10,577 nt of DNA. Source: Dechloromonas sp. Its GTDB lineage: Bacteria; Pseudomonadota; Gammaproteobacteria; Burkholderiales; Rhodocyclaceae. The notes beneath the pieces are model-generated. The model saw only the letters and a program-made list of their open reading frames with translations. It had not been told where the DNA came from and did not search any database. Below are positions 1,107 through 10,577 of the stretch, piece after piece. A program made the translations under genes and the position numbers. Within the stretch, counting starts at the first letter, position 1. Each line of letters opens with the position of its first letter. The stretch covers positions 866,960 to 877,536 of the forward strand of contig CP059264.1 in NCBI GenBank assembly GCA_013693915.1, given 5' to 3'.

Positions 1107-1679
1107 ATGCTGGACATCGCGGTCGCGTTCCTGGCGGATGAATTCAACGCCTACCTGTTGCGGCGCACGGGTTCGCCCACGCCCTTCCGGATGGTGCCTG
1201 CCGCAGTGCTCGACGACAAGGGTGCCTTGGCCATCGCCTCGGGGACGGTCGCCCTGAGCATCGTGAACATCGAGGAAGAACGGGTCATGCGCCAGCAGTT
1301 GCCAAGCCGGGTGGTCAGTGGCGGCCGCGAGTTGCTGCTGCAGCCCGAGTTGAAGCTCAACCTGACACTGCTCTTCGCCGCCCGCATGGTCGATTACCCG
1401 ACCACGCTCAAGGCGCTGTCGCATGTGCTGACCTTCTTCCAGTCGCACCCGGCTTTCTCGGCCGACGACTATCCCCATCTCGATCCGCGCGTCGGCAAGA
1501 TCGTCATGGAGCTCTACAGCGTCGGGCCGGAAACCCTGAACCAGCTGTGGGCCGCGGTCGGCGCCAAGTACCAGCCCTCGGTGCTGTACAGGGCGCGGCT
1601 GGTGACGATCCAGGACCAGGAACCCTTCCAGCCGGGCGAGCCGATTACCGACATCGGCCTCGATCTGCGCAACCGCTAG
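1107..1679 (+). CDS. DUF4255 / Pvc16-type tail cap (terminator) protein
   Basis: This 190-residue protein has the pattern of the DUF4255 (Pvc16 N-terminal) family: an N-terminal helix in which the protein is committed to a few-subunit ring (LDIAVAFLADEFNAYLL), a central strand region (VALSIVNIEEERVMRQ), then LNLTLLFAARMVDYPTTLKAL and the end motif SVLYRARLVTIQDQEP. In Afp and PVC particles the family closes the distal end of tube and sheath, the counterpart of T4 gp3/gp15-like terminators. ATG at 1107 is chosen because AGAGG at 1094-1098 sits eight bases upstream and homology-like sequence begins exactly there; the 69 extra codons back to 900 are repeat-cluster DNA. At 190 residues it appears to be the core domain without the C-terminal extension of the longer Afp16. 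It is the first gene of the operon, whereas in Afp and PVC the cap gene is the last. Confidence 0.85.
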   Translation: MLDIAVAFLADEFNAYLLRRTGSPTPFRMVPAAVLDDKGALAIASGTVALSIVNIEEERVMRQQLPSRVVSGGRELLLQPELKLNLTLLFAARMVDYPTTLKALSHVLTFFQSHPAFSADDYPHLDPRVGKIVMELYSVGPETLNQLWAAVGAKYQPSVLYRARLVTIQDQEPFQPGEPITDIGLDLRNR

Positions 1680-1688
1680 GGCGACATC

Positions 1689-2687
1689 ATGGGCATCCAC
1701 TTCCGCACCCTCCTGCAGATCGAAGTGACCCATGGCTACTACGGCGGCTTGTGCCCAGACCTCGCTTTTGTTGTGCCGAGCGACGAGCCGGCCCTGGCGG
1801 CCGGGCGCCTGCTCGTGCGCGAACGCGAGGGGCGCCTGCTGGTGCTGTTCGAGACCGACGAGGCCGGCAACGCGCTCAGCGAAATCGCTGGCACAACACT
1901 GTTCGTCGGCCTGCGCCAGCTCAACCCGGCCTTCGCCAATTTCACCCAGCCACCGCTACCGGACGGCAGCTTGCCGCTGTATGCCAACGATGCTTCGCCA
2001 ACGGTATTTTCGGCCCCGGTGGCAGCCCACTGGATTGCCGCCCAGCAACGCATCGAGCCGGTGCAAGGGGCCCGTCCCCTGAGCTTGCGCTGGCAGCGCA
2101 ACGGCCTGACGCTCGCCGAGCAGACGCTGGTAGCCGGTGAGAACGAGGCGATGTTCGCAACCCGCGACTGGCCGGCCGGACGCTACACCCTGAGCGAGAC
2201 TGCCGGTGGGCCTGAGCAGCGCAGCACCTGGCTGCTGTCCCGCTCGCTCGCCGATCAGGCCTTGTGGTGCGTTGTCGCCGTGACCATCGCGCCGACCTAC
2301 TACGCCACGCCGCCGACCCTGCGCGTCGCGTTGCTGGCGCGCAGCGATGTGCTTCAGTACTACGTCGTCGCGCGCAACTTCGGCACCAACGAGTTCAATC
2401 AGCTCCAGCTCACCGATGCCGGTGCCGCCGAGCAGGCGCGGCCGGCCATCGCCTTTGCCAAGGTGCTGCCGGCCGAATTCGCTGCCGACGACCTGCTGCC
2501 GGCCTCGCTCGGCGATGCCTCGGCGCGCATTGTCCTTTTCCAGTCGCTGGCGCCGGTGGCGCGCCGGGCCGGCGGCTATCGCAAGCTGCAACTCAAACGC
2601 AACAACGAAGTTCTTGTCCAGCATCTGCCCCAGGCCGGTAGCGACCGGGCGCAGGCGCGTTTCGTCGTCCACCTCGCCAAGTCCTAG
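1689..2687 (+). CDS. Uncharacterised 332-aa eCIS-associated protein
   Basis: I do not recognise a named domain. The protein starts MGIHFRTLLQIEVTHGYYGG and has no signal peptide or membrane segment. The first ~110 residues look like a small alpha/beta or beta domain. Residues ~120-185 (PLSLRWQRNGLTLAEQTLVA, then PAGRYTLSE) read like an Ig-like or beta-sandwich module. The last ~140 residues contain many aromatic and beta-prone segments (LQYYVVARN, YRKLQLKRN) and end FVVHLAKS. It starts nine bases after the cap gene stop, with only a weak AGGG ribosome binding site, so it may be translationally coupled to the cap gene, and it ends 13 bases before the sheath gene. That position suggests a structural or assembly role at the cap end of the particle. 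I have a vague recollection of similar proteins starting with an HxYY motif in Bacteroidetes eCIS loci; this is memory, not a search. Confidence 0.8.
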   Translation: MGIHFRTLLQIEVTHGYYGGLCPDLAFVVPSDEPALAAGRLLVREREGRLLVLFETDEAGNALSEIAGTTLFVGLRQLNPAFANFTQPPLPDGSLPLYANDASPTVFSAPVAAHWIAAQQRIEPVQGARPLSLRWQRNGLTLAEQTLVAGENEAMFATRDWPAGRYTLSETAGGPEQRSTWLLSRSLADQALWCVVAVTIAPTYYATPPTLRVALLARSDVLQYYVVARNFGTNEFNQLQLTDAGAAEQARPAIAFAKVLPAEFAADDLLPASLGDASARIVLFQSLAPVARRAGGYRKLQLKRNNEVLVQHLPQAGSDRAQARFVVHLAKS

Positions 2688-2700
2688 AAGGGGTCAATCC

Positions 2701-4671
2701 ATGCCTACCTACCGCACACCTGACGTTCACATCGAAGAAATCTCGGTCTTCCCGCCTTCGGTCGCCGAAGTGGAAACCGCGATTCCCGCCTTCGTCGGCT
2801 ACACCGCCACCACGACGCAGCTAACCGCCGACGATCTGCTGCGTGTCCCGCGCCGTATCAATTCGCTGTTGGAGTTCGAGAGCCTGTTCGGCAAGGGGCC
2901 CGAATACGAGGTCAGCAAGGCGACCATCGACGAGTCCGGCAACTTCCTGTCGGCCGAGATCGCCAACAGCTATTACCTGTACGACAGCCTGCGGTTGTTC
3001 TACGACAACGGCGGCGGCGATTGCTACATCGTTTCGGCCGGCGCCTACAAGTCGACGGCGCCGCGCGTCGAGCGCGATCCGATCAAGCAGGCCATCCAGG
3101 CTGTCGCCAAGGTCGACGAACCGACCATCCTGCTCTTCCCCGATGCCGCGACACTTGGCGCCGACGACCTGGCCGCCGTGCAGCAGGAGGCCCTGAAGCA
3201 GTGTGGCGAACTAAAGGATCGCGTCGCCGTGCTCGATCTCGGCCTCGGCGATGTCAATGGCGCCAGCTTCCGCGACAAGATCGGCATCAACAACCTGAAA
3301 TACGGCGCAGCCTATACGCCTTGGCTCAAGCTCAACTACAGCAAGCGGGTCGGTTACGCGCAGGTGCGCGACAAAGTAGTGCGCAACGGCGTCGCCCAGC
3401 CGCTCAAGGATCTGACGACCGACAGCGCCGTGCTGAATATCCTGAAGTCGCTCGATGCCGCCCAGGCCGACGTGGCAACGCTGGCGACCCGCGTCGGCGA
3501 ACTAGGTGAGGGCGGCCTCTCGGTCGGTGGCACCTTCGCCAGGAAGGTGGCGGACTACCTGGCCGGCAAAACCGTGGCCAGCGCCCAGCCCTTGTTCGCC
3601 TATTGCTACGCCATCGCCAGGAAAGTCGACGGCCTGATCGCCGGTACGCCGCTGACCTGTACCGACCTGGTCGGTGACGGCGGCGCCAAGACCGGCGATA
3701 TACGCACCCTAATCACCGGCCAGCTGGTGCCGGCGCTGAAGCCCCTGGTGGCCCTGGAGAAGGAATTGAAGGCAGCGCAGGCGAGCTATACCGAGCAGTG
3801 GGACAAGAACAGCCCGCCGACGACTGCGATCTGGGAGAACACCTTCCGCGCCGATGCCGATGGCGGCCCGCCGGCGAGCAGCGGCAACATCCCCACTGCC
3901 GCCTCGGCCACCGTCGCGGCCCGCCTCGACGCGGCGCTACCGGGTATCCAGAAGGCTTTCACGGCGGTGAATGCCGGCCTCTCGGCCATCGTCGCCGCGG
4001 CCCACAACTACGCCCACCTTTACGAACAGAGCCTGTACGACAACTTCACGCCCTACCGCAACATCATCAAGGGAATCGGTTCGACGTTGACGCTTTGCCC
4101 GCCCTCGGGTGCCATCGCCGGCATCTATGCGCTGGTCGACAGCCAGCGCGGTGTCTGGAAGGCGCCGGCCAACGTCAGCCTGAACGGCGTCATCGCACCG
4201 GCAGCCAGCTTCACGGCCAGCGAAACCGACGCGCTCAACGTCGATGCGACGGCCGGTAAATCGATCAATGCCATCCGCGCCTTCGCCGGCAAGGGTACGC
4301 TGGTCTGGGGCGCCCGCACGCTGGCAGGCAACGACAACGAATGGCGCTACATCTCGGTGCGCCGCTTCTTCAACATGGTCGAGGAATCGGTCAAGAAATC
4401 GACCTACTGGGCGGTCTTCGAGCCGAACGACGCCAATACCTGGGTCAAGGTGCGCGGCATGATCGACAACTACCTGACGCAGAAGTGGCGCGAAGGCGCA
4501 TTGGCCGGCGCGACCCCGAAGGACGCCTTCTTCGTGCGCTGCGGCCTCGGCGTGACGATGAGCGCCCAGGATGTCCTGGAAGGGCGGATGAACGTCGAGA
4601 TCGGCATGGCCGTCGTGCGGCCGGCCGAATTCATCATCCTAAAGTTCTCGCACAAGCTGCAGACCAGCTGA
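2701..4671 (+). CDS. Contractile tail sheath protein (Afp2-4 / Pvc2-4-like), large form
   Basis: A 656-residue sheath protein. The N-terminus (YRTPDVHIEEISVFPP, then AIPAFVGYTA at about residues 26-35) is the standard start of phage-tail sheath proteins. The core continues through DGxxDCYIVS-type sequence (GGGDCYIVSAG) to YTPWLKLNY at residues 205-213. It resumes at TLCPPSGAIAGIYA (residues 464-477) and RGVWKAPANV. The conserved C-terminal sheath domain covers ~515-656 (GTLVWGARTL, WRYISVRRFFNMVEES, VEIGMAVVRPAEFIILKFSH). Contraction of this sheath drives the inner tube into the target. Between residues 214 and 460 is a mostly helical insertion absent from short sheaths, containing a Gly/Pro/Ser-rich linker near 385-400. 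The start at 2701 is set by AAGGGG at 2688-2693; the open frame back to 2347 is a shadow of the previous gene. Only one sheath gene is present here, whereas Afp and PVC have three. Confidence 0.95.
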   Translation: MPTYRTPDVHIEEISVFPPSVAEVETAIPAFVGYTATTTQLTADDLLRVPRRINSLLEFESLFGKGPEYEVSKATIDESGNFLSAEIANSYYLYDSLRLFYDNGGGDCYIVSAGAYKSTAPRVERDPIKQAIQAVAKVDEPTILLFPDAATLGADDLAAVQQEALKQCGELKDRVAVLDLGLGDVNGASFRDKIGINNLKYGAAYTPWLKLNYSKRVGYAQVRDKVVRNGVAQPLKDLTTDSAVLNILKSLDAAQADVATLATRVGELGEGGLSVGGTFARKVADYLAGKTVASAQPLFAYCYAIARKVDGLIAGTPLTCTDLVGDGGAKTGDIRTLITGQLVPALKPLVALEKELKAAQASYTEQWDKNSPPTTAIWENTFRADADGGPPASSGNIPTAASATVAARLDAALPGIQKAFTAVNAGLSAIVAAAHNYAHLYEQSLYDNFTPYRNIIKGIGSTLTLCPPSGAIAGIYALVDSQRGVWKAPANVSLNGVIAPAASFTASETDALNVDATAGKSINAIRAFAGKGTLVWGARTLAGNDNEWRYISVRRFFNMVEESVKKSTYWAVFEPNDANTWVKVRGMIDNYLTQKWREGALAGATPKDAFFVRCGLGVTMSAQDVLEGRMNVEIGMAVVRPAEFIILKFSHKLQTS

Positions 4672-4699
4672 TCCGCCCCTGACGCGAAAGGAAAAAATC

Positions 4700-5140
4700 A
4701 TGCCCATTCAAGCCCAATATCCCCTGGCGGTCTTCCACTTCAGCGTCGACTGGGGCGGTACGCGCGTCGGCTTCTCGGAGGTCTCCGGCCTGACGCAGGA
4801 AATCCAGGCCATCGAGTATCGCGACGGCTCCTTCCCGGAGTACTCGTCAATAAAGATGCCGGGCCTGCGCAAGTACAGCAACATCACGCTGAAGCGTGGC
4901 ATCGTCAAGTCCGACAACGAGTTGTTCAACTGGTTGTCGACGGTCCGGCTGAACAAGATAGAACGGCGCGACCTGACCATCAAGCTGCTCGACGAGGACC
5001 ACAACCCGGTGATGACCTGGCAGGTCGCCCGCGCCTTCCCGGTCAAGGTCGAAGGCCCGCAGCTCAAAGCCTCGGCCAACGAGGTGGCGATCGAGTCGAT
5101 CGAGATCGCCCACGAAGGCTTGACGGTGGTGACCAGCTGA
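4700..5140 (+). CDS. Inner tube protein (Afp1 / Pvc1-like, T4 gp19 / Hcp fold)
   Basis: This 146-residue protein shows the phage T4 gp19-like tube signature: FHFSVDWGGTRVGFSEVSGL near the start, the loop EYSSIKMPGLRKY, then the strand NITLKRGIV around residues 62-69, and a closing MTWQVARAFPVKVEGPQLKA segment followed by EVAIESIEIAHEGL. The length equals that of known eCIS tube proteins. Hexameric rings of it should stack to form the hollow inner tube inside the sheath. AAAGGA at 4687-4692, seven bases before the ATG, is one of the best ribosome binding sites in the window, as expected for the most abundant subunit. It lies 28 bases after the sheath gene. Confidence 0.95.
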   Translation: MPIQAQYPLAVFHFSVDWGGTRVGFSEVSGLTQEIQAIEYRDGSFPEYSSIKMPGLRKYSNITLKRGIVKSDNELFNWLSTVRLNKIERRDLTIKLLDEDHNPVMTWQVARAFPVKVEGPQLKASANEVAIESIEIAHEGLTVVTS

Positions 5141-5162
5141 TCGGCTGACGGAACGCGCTGCG

Positions 5163-5606
5163 ATGGCAAGCTACACGCCGCCGGTCTGCTTCCACTTTCG
5201 CGTCGATGTCCTCGGAATGACGAATGTCGACGACGTGCGCTTCACCGAGGTCGGTGGCCTGTCGGTCGAGATGGGCAGCGAGGAGGTGCCGGAAGGCGGC
5301 GAGAACCGCTTCGTGCAGAAGTACCCGACCCGTGCCAAGTACCCGGAGCTGGTGCTGAAGCGCGGCCTGCTGAAAAACTCCGAAGTCTGGGACTGGCTGC
5401 GCGAATGCATCGTCGATCACAAGATTCAGCCGCGCGCCGTCGATGTCGCCTTGCTCAGCGAACTGCACGAACCGTTGATGACCTGGCATCTGGTCGGCGC
5501 CTGGCCGACCAGGTGGGCGATCGGTGACCTCAACGCGGCGAACAACACCTACGCGCTGGAGTCGCTGCAACTGGCCTACCAGTACTTTACGGTCGACAGG
5601 AATTAG
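5163..5606 (+). CDS. Second tube protein / tube initiator (Afp5 / Pvc5-like)
   Basis: A 147-residue paralogue of the preceding tube protein. Shared landmarks are FHFRVDVLG, FTEVGGLSVEM, LVLKRGLL (residues 63-70), WDWLRECIVDH, LMTWHLVGAWPTRW and the closing YALESLQLAYQYF. It differs in the loop GGENRFVQKYPTRAKYPE, which replaces the PEYSSIKMPGL loop of the first. In Afp and PVC the Afp5-type protein forms the first ring on the spike, joining the tube to the baseplate, and the gene order here (tube, then this, then the small Afp6-like gene) agrees. The ribosome binding site (ACGGAA around 5149) is weaker than that of the main tube gene, consistent with lower copy number. Confidence 0.92.
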   Translation: MASYTPPVCFHFRVDVLGMTNVDDVRFTEVGGLSVEMGSEEVPEGGENRFVQKYPTRAKYPELVLKRGLLKNSEVWDWLRECIVDHKIQPRAVDVALLSELHEPLMTWHLVGAWPTRWAIGDLNAANNTYALESLQLAYQYFTVDRN

Positions 5607-5617
5607 GAGCCCCGGAT

Positions 5618-5788
5618 ATGCCCGTCATCGTCGATGAAGTCGTTATCTCGGTCGAAGTCGGCAATCGCGAGGCTGGTGGCGTTGCCGCACCGGCCGAAGC
5701 GACGATGCCGGTCGCGGATCGTCAGGCGCTGGTCGAGGAATGCGTCGCCCGCGTACTCGACATCCTGCGCGAACGCGAGGAGCCGTGA
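5618..5788 (+). CDS. Small DUF5908-like protein (Afp6 / Pvc6 position)
   Basis: A 56-residue frame starting ATG at 5618 with AGGAG at 5605-5609 eight bases upstream, beginning MPVIVDEVVISVEVGN. The strand-forming start is followed by an Ala-rich linker and an amphipathic acidic/basic helix (RQALVEECVARVLDILRERE). This size, start and position between the Afp5-like and Afp7-like genes match the very small DUF5908/Afp6 proteins found at this point in eCIS loci. Their function is not established; a chaperone or assembly factor for the neighbouring tube adaptor has been a reasonable guess. It ends one base before the GTG of the next gene and its 3' end supplies that gene's ribosome binding site, implying coupled translation. 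Confidence 0.8.
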   Translation: MPVIVDEVVISVEVGNREAGGVAAPAEATMPVADRQALVEECVARVLDILREREEP

Positions 5789-5789
5789 G

Positions 5790-6503
5790 GTGAGCTTCCA
5801 GGCAGGCGCTGGCTTGGGCCAGATCGACGTCGGCGGCACCCCGGCCGGCATGCTGGAAAAGCTGACCATCCTCGCCCATGCCCGGCCGGATTACAGCGAC
5901 GCGCCGATCTCGCGCTTCGTCGCCTTCGTCAATCCGGCCGAGATCACGCTCGGCTACGAAGTCGAATACGACGCCGCACAGGGTTCGGGGACGACCAACA
6001 GCCGCATGGAGTTCAAGAAGATCAAGCCGGGCGACCTGTCGCTGACCTTCTTCCTCGACGGTACCGGCGCCAACGGCAGGCCGCTCGACGTCCAGCAGGC
6101 GGTCGAGCAGTTCCAGCAGGTGACCGGTTACAACGGCGACATCCACCGCACCAACTATCTCGAAATCGTCTGGGGCACGCTGCAGGTCAAGCGCTGCGTG
6201 CTGAAGAGCGCCTCGATCGCCTACAAGCTCTTCCGGCCGGACGGCGTGCCGCTGCGGGCGGTGATCACGGCGGCCTTCACCGACAACTCCGACGACCAGA
6301 CGCGGGTCGCGATGGCCCAGGACCATTCGCCGGACCTGACCCACCAGCGCGTCATCAAGGCCGGCGACCAGTTGCCCGCCCTGTGCGCGGCGATCTACGG
6401 CGACCCCGGCCTCTATCTGCGGGTCGCCGAGGCCAACGGGCTGGACGACTTTCGCGCCTTGCCCGTGGGCAGCGTCGTGTATTTTCCGCCGCTGGAGAAG
6501 TAG
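5790..6503 (+). CDS. Tube/baseplate adaptor with C-terminal LysM domain (Afp7 / Pvc7-like)
   Basis: A 237-residue protein. Residues ~20-165 match the contractile-injection-system tube-protein domain (MLEKLTILAH, FVAFVNPAEITLGYEVEYD, LSLTFFLDGTGANG, YLEIVWGTLQVKRCVLKSAS, VPLRAVITAAFTD). Residues ~185-237 form a LysM-like domain (HQRVIKAGDQLPALCAAIYG, VAEANGLDDFRALPVGSVVYFPP). Such proteins, related to phage gp53-type adaptors, sit at the top of the spike and fasten tube to baseplate; here LysM is thought to act in assembly rather than in peptidoglycan binding. The start is GTG at 5790 because GAGGAG at 5777-5782 lies seven bases upstream and it follows the small gene directly. ATG at 5850 (residue 21) is a possible alternative, since homologues often begin near MLEKL, but it has no good ribosome binding site. 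ATG at 5634 would read antiphase through the small gene and is rejected. Confidence 0.9.
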   Translation: MSFQAGAGLGQIDVGGTPAGMLEKLTILAHARPDYSDAPISRFVAFVNPAEITLGYEVEYDAAQGSGTTNSRMEFKKIKPGDLSLTFFLDGTGANGRPLDVQQAVEQFQQVTGYNGDIHRTNYLEIVWGTLQVKRCVLKSASIAYKLFRPDGVPLRAVITAAFTDNSDDQTRVAMAQDHSPDLTHQRVIKAGDQLPALCAAIYGDPGLYLRVAEANGLDDFRALPVGSVVYFPPLEK

Positions 6504-6506
6504 GCC

Positions 6507-8234
6507 ATGCCGGATACCCGCACGCTGCCTATTGCCGCCGAACACCGCGAATTCGCCGTCAAGGCCGGTGACCGGGTGGTGTCGCGCGAGCACCAGCTGG
6601 TCGGCGTGACGGTCACGGCGATAGCCAACAAGATCGCCTCGGCGCGCCTGGTCTATGTCGATGGCGCGGCGGCGAGCGGGCGCTTTCCGCTGGCCGACAG
6701 CGATACCTTCGCGCCCGGCCGGAAGGTCGAAATCCTCGCCGGTAGCGGCCGCGATGCGACCTCGCTGTTCATCGGCAAGGTCGTGCGGGTCGGCTTGCGC
6801 GTCCGCGAAGGGGCTGCCTCGCAATTCGTCGTCGATTGCCGCCATGCCGCGATGAAGCTGACGGTGGCCGAACGCTGTGCCGATTTCTTCGACCAGACCG
6901 ACAGCGACATCATCGGGGCGCTGCTCGATGGTGCCGGCGTCGGGAAGGATGTCGAAGCCACCACCGTCAGCCACAAACAGGTGCTGCAATACCACGCCAC
7001 CGACTGGGATTTCCTGCTGGCCCGCGCGGCTGCCAACGGGCAACTGGTCTGGTGCGAAGGCGAGAAGGTCGTCGTGCGCAAGCCGGCCTTGGGCGGGGCG
7101 AGCGTGTGCACATTGAACTACGGTGCGACCCTGCTCGAGTTCGACGGCGAGATCGACGCCCGCCGCCAGTCGGCCATCGCCGGCACGAGTTGGGATGCGG
7201 CCGGCCAGCAGGCGGTCGAGGTCGAGGCGACGACGCCATCCTTCCGGCCGCCGGGCAACCTGACGCATGATGCGCTGGCCGACGTTGCCGGGCAGACCGT
7301 GCAGTTGCGCCATGCCGCCGTGCCGGAGGCCGAAATCCAGGCCTGGGCCGACGGGCAGGCGCTGGTCCGGCAGGTCGATCAGGTCTGCGGCCGCGGCAAG
7401 TGCCAGGGCATCGCCATCGTAAAGCCGGGTGTCGTCGTCGAGCTCGCCGGGCTTGGTCAACGCTTCAACGGCCAGGCCTTCGTCACCGGCGTGCGTCATG
7501 AGTTCAGCCTGGTCCAGGGCTGGAAGACGCACGTGCAGTTCGGAGGTGCCGAACCCGAGGCGCTCACGCCTCGTGGCCGTCAGGGCGTAAGCGGCCTGGT
7601 GCCGGCGGCGCAGGGGCTGCAGATCGGTGTCGTCACCGACATCGTCGATCCGGACAGCGAATTCCGTATCCGTGTCCGCCTGCCCATGCTCGGCCTGTCG
7701 AGCGATGGCGTCTGGGCGCGGGTGGCCAGCCTGGATGCCGGCGACGACCGCGGTTTCGTTTTCCGGCCCGAGGTGGGCGACGAGGTGACGGTCGGTTTCC
7801 TCGGCGACGACCCGCGCTACCCGGTGGTGCTCGGCATGCTGCACAGCAGCGCCAAACCTGCACCGATCGCGCCGGACAGCGACAACCACGAAAAGATGTT
7901 CAAGAGCCGTTCCGGCATGACCGTGCATTTCGACGACAACAAGGTCGTGCTGACCCTGGCGACGCCGGCCGGCAATCAGCTGGTGCTCGATGAGGATCAG
8001 GGTTCGGTCACTCTGGCCGACCAGAACGGCAACACACTGACGCTCGACAGCGACGGCGTATACATCGAAAGCGCCGGCAAGATCGAGTTCAAGGCGCCCA
8101 TGGATGCCAGCTTCGAAGGCCTGAACATCAGCCTCAAGGCTTCCGCGCAACTGTCGCTGGAAGGCAGCGCCAGCGCGGAGCTGAAGGGCGGCGGCATGGC
8201 CAAGGTGACGGGCGCCATGGTGCAGATCAATTAG
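6507..8234 (+). CDS. VgrG / gpD-like spike protein (Afp8 / Pvc8-like)
   Basis: A 575-residue spike protein with the usual module order. The N-terminal gpD/gp27-like part covers residues ~1-350 and includes ADFFDQTDSDIIGALLDGAG, the W-x-F-LxRxA motif DWDFLLARAAANGQLVW, and AFVTGVRHEFSLVQGWKTHV. A gp5-like OB fold spans ~370-450 (IGVVTDIVDPDSEFRIRVRL, WARVASLDAGDDRGFVFRPE, GDEVTVGFLGDDPRYPVVLG). A C-terminal beta-rich stretch follows at ~465-575 (LVLDEDQGSVTLADQNGN, then SLKASAQLSLEGSASAELKG), typical of the trimeric needle. It forms the central membrane-piercing spike of the baseplate and ends without any added effector domain. The ATG is three bases after the previous stop, so translation is probably coupled. 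The start codon lacks a strong ribosome binding site of its own. Confidence 0.95.
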   Translation: MPDTRTLPIAAEHREFAVKAGDRVVSREHQLVGVTVTAIANKIASARLVYVDGAAASGRFPLADSDTFAPGRKVEILAGSGRDATSLFIGKVVRVGLRVREGAASQFVVDCRHAAMKLTVAERCADFFDQTDSDIIGALLDGAGVGKDVEATTVSHKQVLQYHATDWDFLLARAAANGQLVWCEGEKVVVRKPALGGASVCTLNYGATLLEFDGEIDARRQSAIAGTSWDAAGQQAVEVEATTPSFRPPGNLTHDALADVAGQTVQLRHAAVPEAEIQAWADGQALVRQVDQVCGRGKCQGIAIVKPGVVVELAGLGQRFNGQAFVTGVRHEFSLVQGWKTHVQFGGAEPEALTPRGRQGVSGLVPAAQGLQIGVVTDIVDPDSEFRIRVRLPMLGLSSDGVWARVASLDAGDDRGFVFRPEVGDEVTVGFLGDDPRYPVVLGMLHSSAKPAPIAPDSDNHEKMFKSRSGMTVHFDDNKVVLTLATPAGNQLVLDEDQGSVTLADQNGNTLTLDSDGVYIESAGKIEFKAPMDASFEGLNISLKASAQLSLEGSASAELKGGGMAKVTGAMVQIN

Positions 8235-8250
8235 CGGCGAGGAGACGACG

Positions 8251-8526
8251 ATGCCAGCAGCAGCCTGTGTCGGCGATATCACCAGCCATGGTGGCACGGT
8301 CACCGGGCCGGGCGTGCCGACGGTCATGATTGGCGGCAAGCCGGCGGCGGTGCTGGGCGACCTGCATGCCTGTCCGTTGCCGCCGCAGCATGGCCCGTCG
8401 GCCAGCCCGTTCACGATGGGCAGTGCGACGGTGATGATCGGTGGCCGGCCGGCGCTGCGGGTCGGCGATATCTGCGGCTGCGCGGCCAGCGTGCTGGTCG
8501 GCAATCCGACCGTGATGATCGGCTGA
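8251..8526 (+). CDS. PAAR-domain spike tip protein (Afp10-like)
   Basis: A 91-residue protein made only of a PAAR domain. Three repeats of a turn carrying TVMIGG or TVMIG occur at residues 24-29, 60-65 and 87-91, and two are followed by the PAxxxGD signature (PAAVLGD, PALRVGD), the hallmark of the pseudo-threefold PAAR cone. Candidate metal ligands at the tip are His13, His39, His47 and Cys75 or Cys77, by analogy with the His/Cys zinc site of known PAAR proteins. It should cap the VgrG needle, sharpening it and possibly carrying cargo. A good AGGAG at 8240-8244 precedes the ATG. No toxin extension is fused to it. It sits before the gp25-like gene, the reverse of the Afp9-Afp10 order. Confidence 0.93.
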   Translation: MPAAACVGDITSHGGTVTGPGVPTVMIGGKPAAVLGDLHACPLPPQHGPSASPFTMGSATVMIGGRPALRVGDICGCAASVLVGNPTVMIG

Positions 8527-8534
8527 GGCGCGCG

Positions 8535-8609
8535 ATGAAATTTCAATTTTGGCCGTTTTTTCCGGTTGACCGTCAGGCAGGCGGTGCAGCCGTGGGAGCA
8601 GGGCGATGA
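8535..8609 (+). CDS. Tiny 24-codon ORF coupled by ATGA to the gp25-like gene
   Basis: The space between the PAAR and gp25-like genes holds one frame starting ATG at 8535 (residues MKFQFWPFFP, then a Gly/Ala-rich tail) and ending TGA at 8607-8609. Its stop overlaps the ATG at 8606 as ATGA, the classic arrangement for translational coupling. The first ten codons are AT-rich and aromatic, unlike the local codon use, and include a T6 run at 8556-8561. No homologue comes to mind and the ribosome binding site (TGAGGCG at 8524-8530) is modest. It may be a leader ORF feeding ribosomes to the gp25-like gene, or simply non-coding spacer. Confidence 0.3.
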   Translation: MKFQFWPFFPVDRQAGGAAVGAGR

Positions 8610-9214
8610 GCGAGCGTGACGAGCCTCTCGATTCCTTTCTCGGCACCGGCTGGGCCTTCCCGCCGCGATTCACGACCAGCGGCGCGGCGATGGTCGCGGA
8701 CGAGGACGACATCCACGAAAGCCTGGTGATCCTGTTCGGCACGGCGGCCGGTGAGCGGCTGTTCGCGCCGAAATACGGCCTCGACATGCATGCCATGCTG
8801 TTCGAGCCGATGAGTACGACGATGCGCACACTACTGCTCGATCGCGTGCGTACCGCGCTGTTGATCCACGAGCCGCGCATCCGGGTGCTGACCTTGAGCG
8901 TCGACAGCCCCGACCCGGCCAGCGGCCAGCTCAACATCCGGCTCGACTACGAAGTGCGCGCCACCAACTCGCGCTACAACCTCGTCTATCCCTTCTACGC
9001 CAGCGACGCCAACGAAGCGCGTGCCGCCGTGCTGCCCGGGGCGGGGCCTGATCGATCATGGCCGCCGAACGCATCCTGCAGAACGACATCCCCGGGCTGG
9101 GCCAGAGCCAGGATGAACGCTTGCCGGCGGCACTCGATCCGGGCCATGCGCCGATCGACGCCCGGACGCCGGCCGAACGCATCGCCGAAGCGCGGCGCCT
9201 GGCGGCCCGCCTGA
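8606..9214 (+). CDS. gp25-like baseplate wedge protein (Afp9 / Pvc9-like), 3' end probably frame-shifted
   Basis: Residues 1-131 are a GPW/gp25-family protein: FLGTGWAFPPRFT near the start, DEDDIHESLVILFGTAAGER (the conserved I-x-x-x-x-x-IL-x-T-x-x-GER pattern), FAPKYGLDMHAMLFEP, the RVRTALLIHEPRIRVLTLSV helix-strand, and the family's usual end YNLVYPFY. gp25 proteins help the sheath attach to the baseplate and carry the inter-wedge contact. Family members are about 130-150 residues, but this frame continues to 202 residues and overlaps the next gene by 157 bases. The extra tail is Arg/Pro/Ser-rich, as expected of antiphase reading. A TGA at 9049-9051, seven bases before the next ATG, would end a 148-residue protein if one base were added in the G-rich run at 9038-9046. 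The start has GGAGCAGGG at 8594-8602 upstream. Confidence 0.85.
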   Translation: MSERDEPLDSFLGTGWAFPPRFTTSGAAMVADEDDIHESLVILFGTAAGERLFAPKYGLDMHAMLFEPMSTTMRTLLLDRVRTALLIHEPRIRVLTLSVDSPDPASGQLNIRLDYEVRATNSRYNLVYPFYASDANEARAAVLPGAGPDRSWPPNASCRTTSPGWARARMNACRRHSIRAMRRSTPGRRPNASPKRGAWRPA

Positions 9215-10577
9215 ACTTCTACGACCTCGACCCGAAGGCCGTCAGCGGAAACTGGCAGGGGCTCTTCCCGCCCGGTGCCGAGGCGCTGCTGAGCGCCGAC
9301 GATGGCAAGGTGCCACCGCATCTCGGCCTGTTCGGCGCCTTCCTCGAGATGCTCGAGCCGGCCCGGCAGGCGCTCAACGATCTCGGCGGCGAGCATCTCG
9401 ATTTCGAATACCGCAAAGTCCTCGGATTCCGGCCGCTGCCGCCGCAGCCGGAACACGCCCACCTAGTCCTCGAGGCCAAGAAAGGTGCGGCGCCTTTCGC
9501 CGTCAAGCCGGCCATGCGCTTCACCGGCGGCAAGGATGCGCGTGGCGCCGAGCGCCTGTATGCGCCGGTGCACGACCTGCTGGTCGGCGCCGGCCAGGTG
9601 GTCGCCCGCCATAGCGTTTATCGCGACGCCGCCGGCCTGCGCTTCGCGCCGGTCGCCGATTCGGCCGATGGGCTCGGCGAAGCCTTGCCGCCGGCCAAGC
9701 CCGCCTGGCCAGCCTTCGGTCATGCCGGCCTGAGCCCGGTACCGGTCGGCTTCGCCATCGCGTCGTCCTTGTTGCGCCTGCAGGAAGGCGAGCGTCGGGT
9801 CAGCTTGAGCGTCGATTTGAGTTTCCTGGCCGCCAGCGGTTTGTCGGCCGGCGACGTTGGCGCCGCGCTGCAAGCCTATGTGACCGGCGCCAAAGGCTGG
9901 CTCGGCCCCTATCCGCTCAGCGCCTCGGCGCAGGGCGAACGCCTGCAGCTGGCCTGCGTCATCGCCGCCAGCGAGCCGGCGGTTGTCGATTGCGCCGCGT
10001 CGGTGCATGGCCATGCCTTCGCCACCAACCTGCCGGTCCTGCAACTGCTGCTGCGCCCCGAAGCCGCCGCCCGCTATGCGGCGCTCGCCGGCCTACGGCC
10101 GGAGCGGCTGCAACTCGAGGTCAGCGTCGACGGCGCCCGTAACCTGACGCTGGAAAACGACTTCGGCACCCTGAACCCGAAGAAGGCCTTCCAGCCCTTC
10201 GGGCCGCAGCCGGTCGCCGGCTCGCGCTTCCAGGTCGGCTGTCCGGAAGCGCTGGCCAAACCGCTGACGCAGTTGGCCATCAAGCTCGCCTGGCAGGGCG
10301 CCCCGGCCGACCTGGGCGGCTGGTACGGCCAATATTCGCGCCAAAGCAGCATCGCCAACGGCGTGCAGGCCCGGCTGGTCTATCAGGATGCCTCGGGCAG
10401 CCAGACGGTGCGCCAGCTCAACCTGATGCAGCGCACCGACGGCGTCACGACCCTCAGCCCGCAGGCGCCGGCTTACGCCATCCCGGTGGTTTCCCAGGCG
10501 AGCATGGCCTATCGCCTGTTCCACGGCGGCAACCTGTTCGCCCGCCTGCTCGGCCGCAAGCTGCAGCAGGTACAGCC
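9058..10577 (+). CDS. Baseplate wedge protein (Afp11/Afp12-like), 5' part, runs off the window
   Basis: The frame opens with ATG at 9058 (MAAERILQNDIPGLGQSQDE) and stays open for 506 codons to the edge without a stop, so only the N-terminal part is seen. The start, the following LDPGHAPIDARTPAERIAEA helix and LNFYDLDPKAVSGNWQGLFP fit large eCIS baseplate proteins. Next come FLEMLEPARQALNDLGGEHLDF, which begins the usual wedge-protein order of helix then repeated beta modules, and a motif around residues 365-382 (LENDFGTLNPKKAFQPFG) followed by PQPVAGSRFQVG. I cannot say from this part whether it corresponds to Afp11 or Afp12; the DPGI-LLELFA motif of many gp6/J-like proteins was not seen. It should form the baseplate arms that tie spike, sheath and fibres together. 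No clear ribosome binding site precedes it, so translation probably depends on the gp25-like gene. Confidence 0.85.
   Translation, partial: MAAERILQNDIPGLGQSQDERLPAALDPGHAPIDARTPAERIAEARRLAARLNFYDLDPKAVSGNWQGLFPPGAEALLSADDGKVPPHLGLFGAFLEMLEPARQALNDLGGEHLDFEYRKVLGFRPLPPQPEHAHLVLEAKKGAAPFAVKPAMRFTGGKDARGAERLYAPVHDLLVGAGQVVARHSVYRDAAGLRFAPVADSADGLGEALPPAKPAWPAFGHAGLSPVPVGFAIASSLLRLQEGERRVSLSVDLSFLAASGLSAGDVGAALQAYVTGAKGWLGPYPLSASAQGERLQLACVIAASEPAVVDCAASVHGHAFATNLPVLQLLLRPEAAARYAALAGLRPERLQLEVSVDGARNLTLENDFGTLNPKKAFQPFGPQPVAGSRFQVGCPEALAKPLTQLAIKLAWQGAPADLGGWYGQYSRQSSIANGVQARLVYQDASGSQTVRQLNLMQRTDGVTTLSPQAPAYAIPVVSQASMAYRLFHGGNLFARLLGRKLQQVQ

Follow-up and report, generated by a model that had tools for sequence, protein, structure and literature searches.

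A 10,577-nucleotide stretch of a Dechloromonas sp. genome (assembly GCA_013693915.1, contig CP059264.1), hereafter the window, holds the 5' part of an operon for an extracellular contractile injection system (eCIS). The window comprises bases 866960-877536 of a single-contig 3.96 Mb genome (completeness 93.35, contamination 0.92). Open reading frames (ORFs) were called over 57 kb around it, followed by family scans of the predicted proteins, which gave sixteen genes on the + strand; in window numbering they extend from 1107 to about 23496. Since the distances from neighbour to neighbour are only -157 to +79 nt, the genes are taken to form a single operon, in the following order:

1107..1679, +, cap (Pvc16_N, DUF4255) of Cis16A/Alg16A type, 190 aa; Pfam PF14065, E 1.2e-29
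1689..2687, +, predicted cap adaptor (Alg16B/tCIS type), 332 aa; basis, predicted structure
2701..4671, +, single sheath, 656 aa; Phage_sheath_1C E 1e-14, Phage_sheath_1 E 5e-9
4700..5140, +, inner tube 1 (gp19 family); PF06841 E 3.5e-48
5163..5606, +, inner tube 2 / tube initiator (gp19 family); PF06841 E 1.3e-39
5618..5788, +, spike plug (DUF5908, Alg6/Cis6 type), 56 aa; PF19265 E 9.3e-14
5790..6503, +, tube initiator / LysM adaptor (CIS_tube), 237 aa, GTG start; PF19266 E 1.5e-44
6507..8234, +, VgrG-like spike hub, 575 aa; PF04717 (Phage_base_V) E 1e-23, PF05954 (Phage_GPD) E 2e-7
8251..8526, +, PAAR spike tip, 91 aa; PF05488 E 2.2e-22
8606..9214, +, gp25-like sheath initiator (GPW_gp25); PF04965 E 5.7e-22
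9058..12081 (leaving the window at 10577), +, baseplate wedge 1 (Alg11/Cis11 type), 1007 aa; Baseplate_J PF04865 E 5e-7
12056..14725, +, wedge 2
14741..17482, +, fibre, 913 aa
17493..18959, +, tape measure (CIS_TMP, E 1e-78)
18944..20392, +, AAA ATPase
20311..23496, +, effector, 1061 aa

The gene set of an eCIS is complete, with an AAA ATPase, a tape measure and a DUF5908 plug in addition to sheath, tube, spike, baseplate and cap. The trait typical of AlgoCIS and of the thylakoid-linked contractile injection system (tCIS) of Anabaena, i.e. a short cap with a separate cap adaptor, is also present. The best solved relatives of the cap are All3327 of the Anabaena tCIS (E 1e-20) and the AlgoCIS cap (E 5e-16), and those of wedge 1 are AlgoCIS 7aeb_G (E 1e-113) and All3317 (E 7e-108). 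The wedge 1 alignment spans residues 107-489 and 550-1031 of Alg11, including most of the cage domain (residues 278-643), and wedge 1 is homologous to the cage-bearing Alg11/Cis11. The Afp/PVC type (from the antifeeding prophage and the Photorhabdus virulence cassettes; subtype Ia, as cited in PMC10598620) has several sheath genes and a cap downstream of the AAA ATPase, close to the 3' end, whereas here there is one sheath and the cap comes first; AlgoCIS is placed in subtype Ib (scheme of Chen et al. 2019, as cited in PMC10598620 and PMC8894135). We consider it very likely that the operon encodes an eCIS of the AlgoCIS/tCIS type, complete and probably functional, and that its host is an Azonexaceae-like member of the Rhodocyclales. 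All the genes that a first-pass annotation of the window had named (cap, sheath, two tubes, DUF5908, LysM adaptor, spike, PAAR, gp25 and wedge) are present on the + strand with Pfam support, and its supposition of a proteobacterial host was right, as was its expectation of AAA ATPase, tape measure, fibre and toxin genes downstream; it overlooked the 332-aa gene between cap and sheath.

That annotation had also described the gene order as rearranged and as the mark of a distinct eCIS lineage. The layout is indeed unlike that of Afp/PVC, as comparison with the annotated pADAP record confirmed (cap early, one sheath, PAAR before gp25), but the same order is usual in 80 named relatives and in the published Anabaena system, so that neither a rearrangement nor an unknown lineage is supported. 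The 80 loci, with 10-kb flanks, were kept from one scan of named genomes with sheath alignment, and cap, PAAR and gp25 were called using hidden Markov models (HMMs) made with sequences of the window and of its relatives. The cap lies upstream of the sheath in 75 of the 76 loci having at least 1.5 kb before the first sheath (71 by script and four, L059, L067, L109 and L110, in which an overlap hid the cap; the exception is L123), although 10-kb flanks are too short to exclude another cap far downstream and the cap HMM, which failed on the annotated Afp cap, may overlook distant caps. The cap-to-sheath gap is 0.6-1.5 kb, space for one adaptor gene, in 66 of 71 loci, and under 80 nt in L094, L098 and L133. 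PAAR precedes gp25 wherever both were called (67/67), and more than one sheath ORF occurs in 11/80 loci. Sheath matches were obtained in 60 of 199 genomes from the same family. Six of these are full-length, at 60-75%, and in every one of the six the gene order is that of the window; four can be followed as far as the effector, G177 ends within the effector and G164 within wedge 2. The Anabaena operon is reported to begin with the cap gene all3327 (PMC8894136) and AlgoCIS to have a single sheath protein (PMC8894135); in the AlgoCIS PDB names, 'Algo1' is the cap, 'Algo2' the cap adaptor and 'Algo12' the second wedge, numbers that we read as operon positions. The cap-first, PAAR-before-gp25 order is the usual order of a known type, and a false lead is thereby removed.

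Sheath copy number and position vary in some of these loci. L110 has a second sheath ORF upstream of its cap, L070 (Desulfobulbaceae) has a second sheath and tube pair between its spike and PAAR genes, and three cap-first Algoriphagus loci (L118, L119 and L120) have two tandem sheath ORFs, compared with the single one reported for A. machipongonensis.

The product of 1689-2687 has no PDB sequence match at E up to 1 and none in Pfam or PHROGs; a profile search was weak, its two best matches being cap proteins (9r9n_C, E 0.0077; 7adz_1A, E 0.04). In a Foldseek search with its structural model 37 matches pass E 0.001, most of them ordinary immunoglobulin-domain proteins, and our argument uses only the two matches that span the greater part of the query protein. 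On this modelled fold we assign the product as a cap adaptor; 69 further homologues were found, and the assignment gives a function to a family that has no Pfam model.

The sheath and the body of the machine give conflicting signals as to ancestry. The closest named relatives by sheath are metagenome-assembled genomes (MAGs) of Dechloromonas and Azonexus (Azonexaceae); its PDB relatives are the sheaths of AlgoCIS (E 3e-128) and Anabaena (All3325, E 9e-126). A middle insert lies at about residues 213-440. Outside the Rhodocyclales-type loci, identities by gene place a tCIS-like group (Nostoc, Pseudanabaena, Geobacteraceae, Variovorax, Rubrivivax and two Bacteroidota MAGs) closest or level for the cap, adaptor, tube 2, plug, LysM adaptor, spike, gp25, both wedges and the sheath C terminus; PAAR is the exception, with Algoriphagus loci nearer (73% vs 61-66% for tCIS-like loci). 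Trees were made for wedge 1 (78 rows), for tube 2, LysM adaptor and spike together (43 rows), for the whole sheath (94) and for sheath parts (44), with groups that were picked after seeing the trees and with uneven composition flagged by the programs. The wedge 1 and three-gene trees concur in placing the window's group and the tCIS-like rows on one side of a branch (100/100), and the body genes reject a union of the window's group with five Bacteroidota/Chlorobiota loci (approximately unbiased test, p-AU 0.00016). In the whole-sheath tree the group falls with Bacteroidota/Chlorobiota instead, and the Bacteroidetes locus L065 adjoins it in the sheath trees. An origin of the whole operon in Bacteroidota, our first reading of that tree, is contradicted by the wedge tree, the per-gene identities and the three-gene tree.

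When the sheath is analysed in parts, its C-terminal part falls beside the tCIS-like rows (88/83, not starred) and rejects placement together with the five Bacteroidota/Chlorobiota loci (p-AU 0.0039). For the N-terminal part a union with those loci is unrejected (p-AU 0.52) and that of Azonexaceae-type with tCIS-like sheaths is nearly rejected (p-AU 0.057), such that the assignment of the N terminus to Bacteroidota is borderline. Two loci, L062 and G164, group with Variovorax and Rubrivivax on the body genes (100/100 in the three-gene tree), an arrangement that each of the two sheath parts rejects (p-AU 0.0001 and 0.00002); conversely, the body genes reject (p-AU 0.0013) the arrangement given by the sheath, in which both loci join the Azonexaceae rows. 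Because the sheath and body data reject each other's groupings, an exchange of the sheath gene between operons appears the simplest reading, with the caution that one betaproteobacterial clade is unrejected on the sheath C-terminal part (p-AU 0.078). On this reading the N-terminal part and the insert, which resemble their counterparts in Bacteroidota/Chlorobiota sheaths, would have been grafted onto a tCIS-like machine. Large middle inserts also occur in two cyanobacterial sheaths (256 aa in Nostoc foliaceum, L108; 186 aa in Pseudanabaena, L073), the same position being occupied by 22-23 aa in six tCIS-like relatives.

The effector begins with an eCIS core domain (DUF4157; PF13699, E 4.8e-30), the sole such match in the genome, which according to structural models is likely followed by a helical tape-measure-like trunk and a C-terminal EndA-type nuclease fold; the injector is probably loaded with a DNA-cutting toxin. 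An effector profile gave no PDB match at E up to 1. Among the 120 homologues listed, the C-terminal domain is like that of the window in 58, unlike it in 56 and between in 6, and the C-terminal domains of 119 fall into 27 clusters. Such variety on a shared trunk resembles the pattern of toxins in conflict, with a tape-measure-like carrier that seems still recognisable across phyla. In the same-genus genome G112 the effector end is identical to a Ferribacterium limneticum protein over 130 residues. The sister operon of G012 (L040, 1213-4836) has an effector with a different C-terminal domain and, 10 nt 3' of the effector, a 153-codon gene with a weak YbjN match, possibly for immunity or a chaperone.

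The fibre has a different pattern. A profile made from 40 of the 120 homologues listed, of 162 found, matches Alg19 (9wt0_a, E 1e-117) and Cis19 (7b5h_AA, E 4e-74) over fibre residues 9-526, the former match ending at Alg19 residue 532 of 1443. The last ~390 residues, which resemble neither Alg19 nor Cis19 and have no convincing match in the PDB, are the probable target-binding part; weak IpaD-like matches to the C-terminal half (E 0.012 and worse) were taken as chance between helical proteins. Identity to 29 close relatives is 35-90% in all 50-residue blocks, and there has therefore been no wholesale tip swap, unlike in the effector. Overall, we lean towards the view that in Rhodocyclales eCIS the body has been inherited and modules have been remodelled at two points, via an exchanged sheath and a polymorphic toxin payload with a fixed carrier and exchangeable warheads. 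If so, coat and warhead would be the parts selected by targets, predators or phages. The conflict between sheath and body, along with the exchangeable C-terminal domains, makes separate module evolution of eCIS coat and payload testable.

The families of the sheath, tube, spike and baseplate are common to type VI secretion systems (T6SS) and prophage tails, but a T6SS or a prophage tail module has next to no probability here. As the first-pass annotation held, there are no T6SS membrane-complex genes nearby; TssK and TssM have no match genome-wide, an E. coli control being positive in both searches. None of 10 flanking proteins is a phage head or packaging protein, no phage record spans 80% of the sheath (278 partial matches), and parts found only in eCIS are present (DUF5908, CIS_TMP, CIS_tube and eCIS_core). 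Both readings were rejected on the TssK/TssM, flanking-protein and phage-record evidence. Several observations do weigh against a working, nuclease-delivering eCIS. No lysis gene was seen among the 10 flanking proteins scanned, in contrast with the Afp record (pADAP), in which holins and a lysozyme are annotated upstream. The effector match to PF13930 is under the curated cut-off (25.3 vs 27), the best Foldseek E for the whole-effector model is 0.037, and the trunk is poorly modelled (mean pLDDT 67.6, pTM 0.32). A nuclease without a visible immunity gene fits poorly with attack on close kin. Finally, the gp25 and AAA ATPase frames exceed those of relatives and run into the next gene: gp25 has 202 codons vs 148 in G112, continues ~54 codons past the ends in five relatives by alignment and overlaps wedge 1 by 157 nt, and the AAA ATPase has 482 codons vs 448 and overlaps its neighbour by 82 nt. 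These long ends may be either natural change or assembly error; X residues from ambiguous bases in at least eight proteins near the operon hint at residual assembly errors in the single-contig genome. Such lengths and ambiguities could also mean that the operon is decaying, with length errors or mutations in gp25 and the AAA ATPase. We regard decay as very improbable, given that the conserved cores of both proteins are intact, 16/16 genes are uninterrupted by stops and the ambiguities, being of single bases, suggest assembly error.

A complete eCIS may nevertheless remain bound to, or inside, the producing cell, like the tCIS on thylakoids, T6SSiv and the Streptomyces systems. The body genes are nearest the tCIS-like group, the tCIS is reported to remain in the cell pellet (PMC8894136), and Tme, the nearest described effector, is reported to act in the producer's own culture (PMC11126660). 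However, the membrane-anchoring parts of the tCIS are missing: wedge 2 aligns to All3315 only at 11-674 and 1141-1335, lacking most of the extension at 610-1100 (Cis12) by which the tCIS is reported to be attached to the thylakoid, and a Cis13 gene is absent from between the wedges and from the rest of the operon. Anabaena particles reportedly floated free after Cis13 truncation, and in a crude hydropathy scan no fibre segment exceeded 1.6 and the wedges had only marginal ones. A free particle is likelier because these anchors are missing, and we judge a cell-bound system fairly unlikely. The nuclease could alternatively serve the producer population, through programmed lysis and DNA release, rather than attack others. 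Its predicted three-part design is that of Tme, for which PMC11126660 links the nuclease activity with DNA release and sporulation, and no immunity gene was seen in the 437 nt downstream of the effector (open frames of at least 70 codons with coding-like composition). The exchange of C-terminal domains among the listed relatives, including the different domain and small downstream gene of G012, argues the other way, making a self-directed role unlikely.

For the favoured free, other-directed eCIS, the steps of assembly, cage opening and firing are borrowed from work on AlgoCIS (as reported in PMC8894135 and PMC13314943), and loading of cargo by the AAA ATPase is described in PMC11495950. By analogy, the tube would be built up on the baseplate within the sheath and be loaded with the effector with help from the AAA ATPase and the eCIS core domain, and the cap and cap adaptor would close the distal end. 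The particles would probably be unattached in the cytoplasm and be released by the lysis of some of the cells. Binding by the fibre would open the cage, and contraction of the sheath would push the tube across the envelope of the target. The trunk may then assist the nuclease across a membrane, beyond which it would cut nucleic acid. Release, target and activity in this scheme are inferred by analogy, with bacteria as the likeliest, if weakly supported, target.

The operon is flanked upstream by genes for a PhaC-like hydrolase and a Sir2 protein and downstream by those for a WS/DGAT acyltransferase, aldolase, aconitase and pyruvate kinase; its sheath is the only sheath-family match in the genome. 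PADLOC gave no match for the 7 proteins scanned, Rfam none in the window, and promoter and terminator scans of 600-1300 no site. Upstream of the operon at L002 are an 1814-aa protein with CHAT, DUF7379 and TPR-S domains (2698-8139, -) and paired type III restriction-type helicase and DNA methylase genes (10399-15131, -). A literature search on eCIS in Dechloromonas, Azonexus, Rhodocyclaceae or Accumulibacter returned no record with 'contractile injection system' among the matches listed, which is not proof of absence in print. The system is an ordinary but complete eCIS, of specialist interest for its putative cap-adaptor assignment, missing tCIS anchors, sheath conflict and exchangeable warhead.

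Compared with known systems, Afp of Serratia entomophila (pADAP) and PVC share homologous tube, sheath C terminus, LysM adaptor, spike, gp25, wedges, tape measure and AAA ATPase with the operon. The annotated Afp order is, however, tube, three sheaths, tube, DUF5908, hypothetical, baseplate V, gp25, hypotheticals, tape measure, AAA and DUF4255 last, i.e. with three sheath genes, the cap at the end and gp25 before the Afp10 position, and the fibre is different. Tme of Streptomyces davawensis, likened here by description, resembles the effector in its N-terminal DUF4157/eCIS core, tape-measure-like hydrophobic middle and C-terminal EndA-type nuclease, but it has 2247 aa and belongs to another CIS lineage. 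The Tme group is defined in PMC11126660 by a gene just upstream of the baseplate genes and the largest of its cluster; the effector here has a Tme-like domain design but is encoded last in the operon. AlgoCIS of Algoriphagus machipongonensis (PDB 7adz, 7aeb, 9wt0) likewise has a single long sheath (692 aa), cap and cap adaptor, plug, cage-bearing wedge, Alg19 fibre and eCIS core (DUF4157) cargo; it differs in having two cargo genes rather than one, in the C-terminal part of Alg19, to which our fibre has no similarity, and in body genes that are less similar to those here than are those of tCIS-like loci. The Anabaena tCIS (all3313-all3327; PDB 7b5h, 7b5i) shares the cap-first order, cap adaptor, one sheath and Cis19-type fibre N terminus. 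It differs in its Cis13 gene and full Cis12 membrane extension, in a longer fibre (1476 vs 913 aa) and in a sheath, All3325, of 484 aa, compared with 656 aa and a large insert here. A betaproteobacterial system that resembles the tCIS but lacks its membrane anchors is a natural comparison for asking how a syringe made for release becomes an anchored one.

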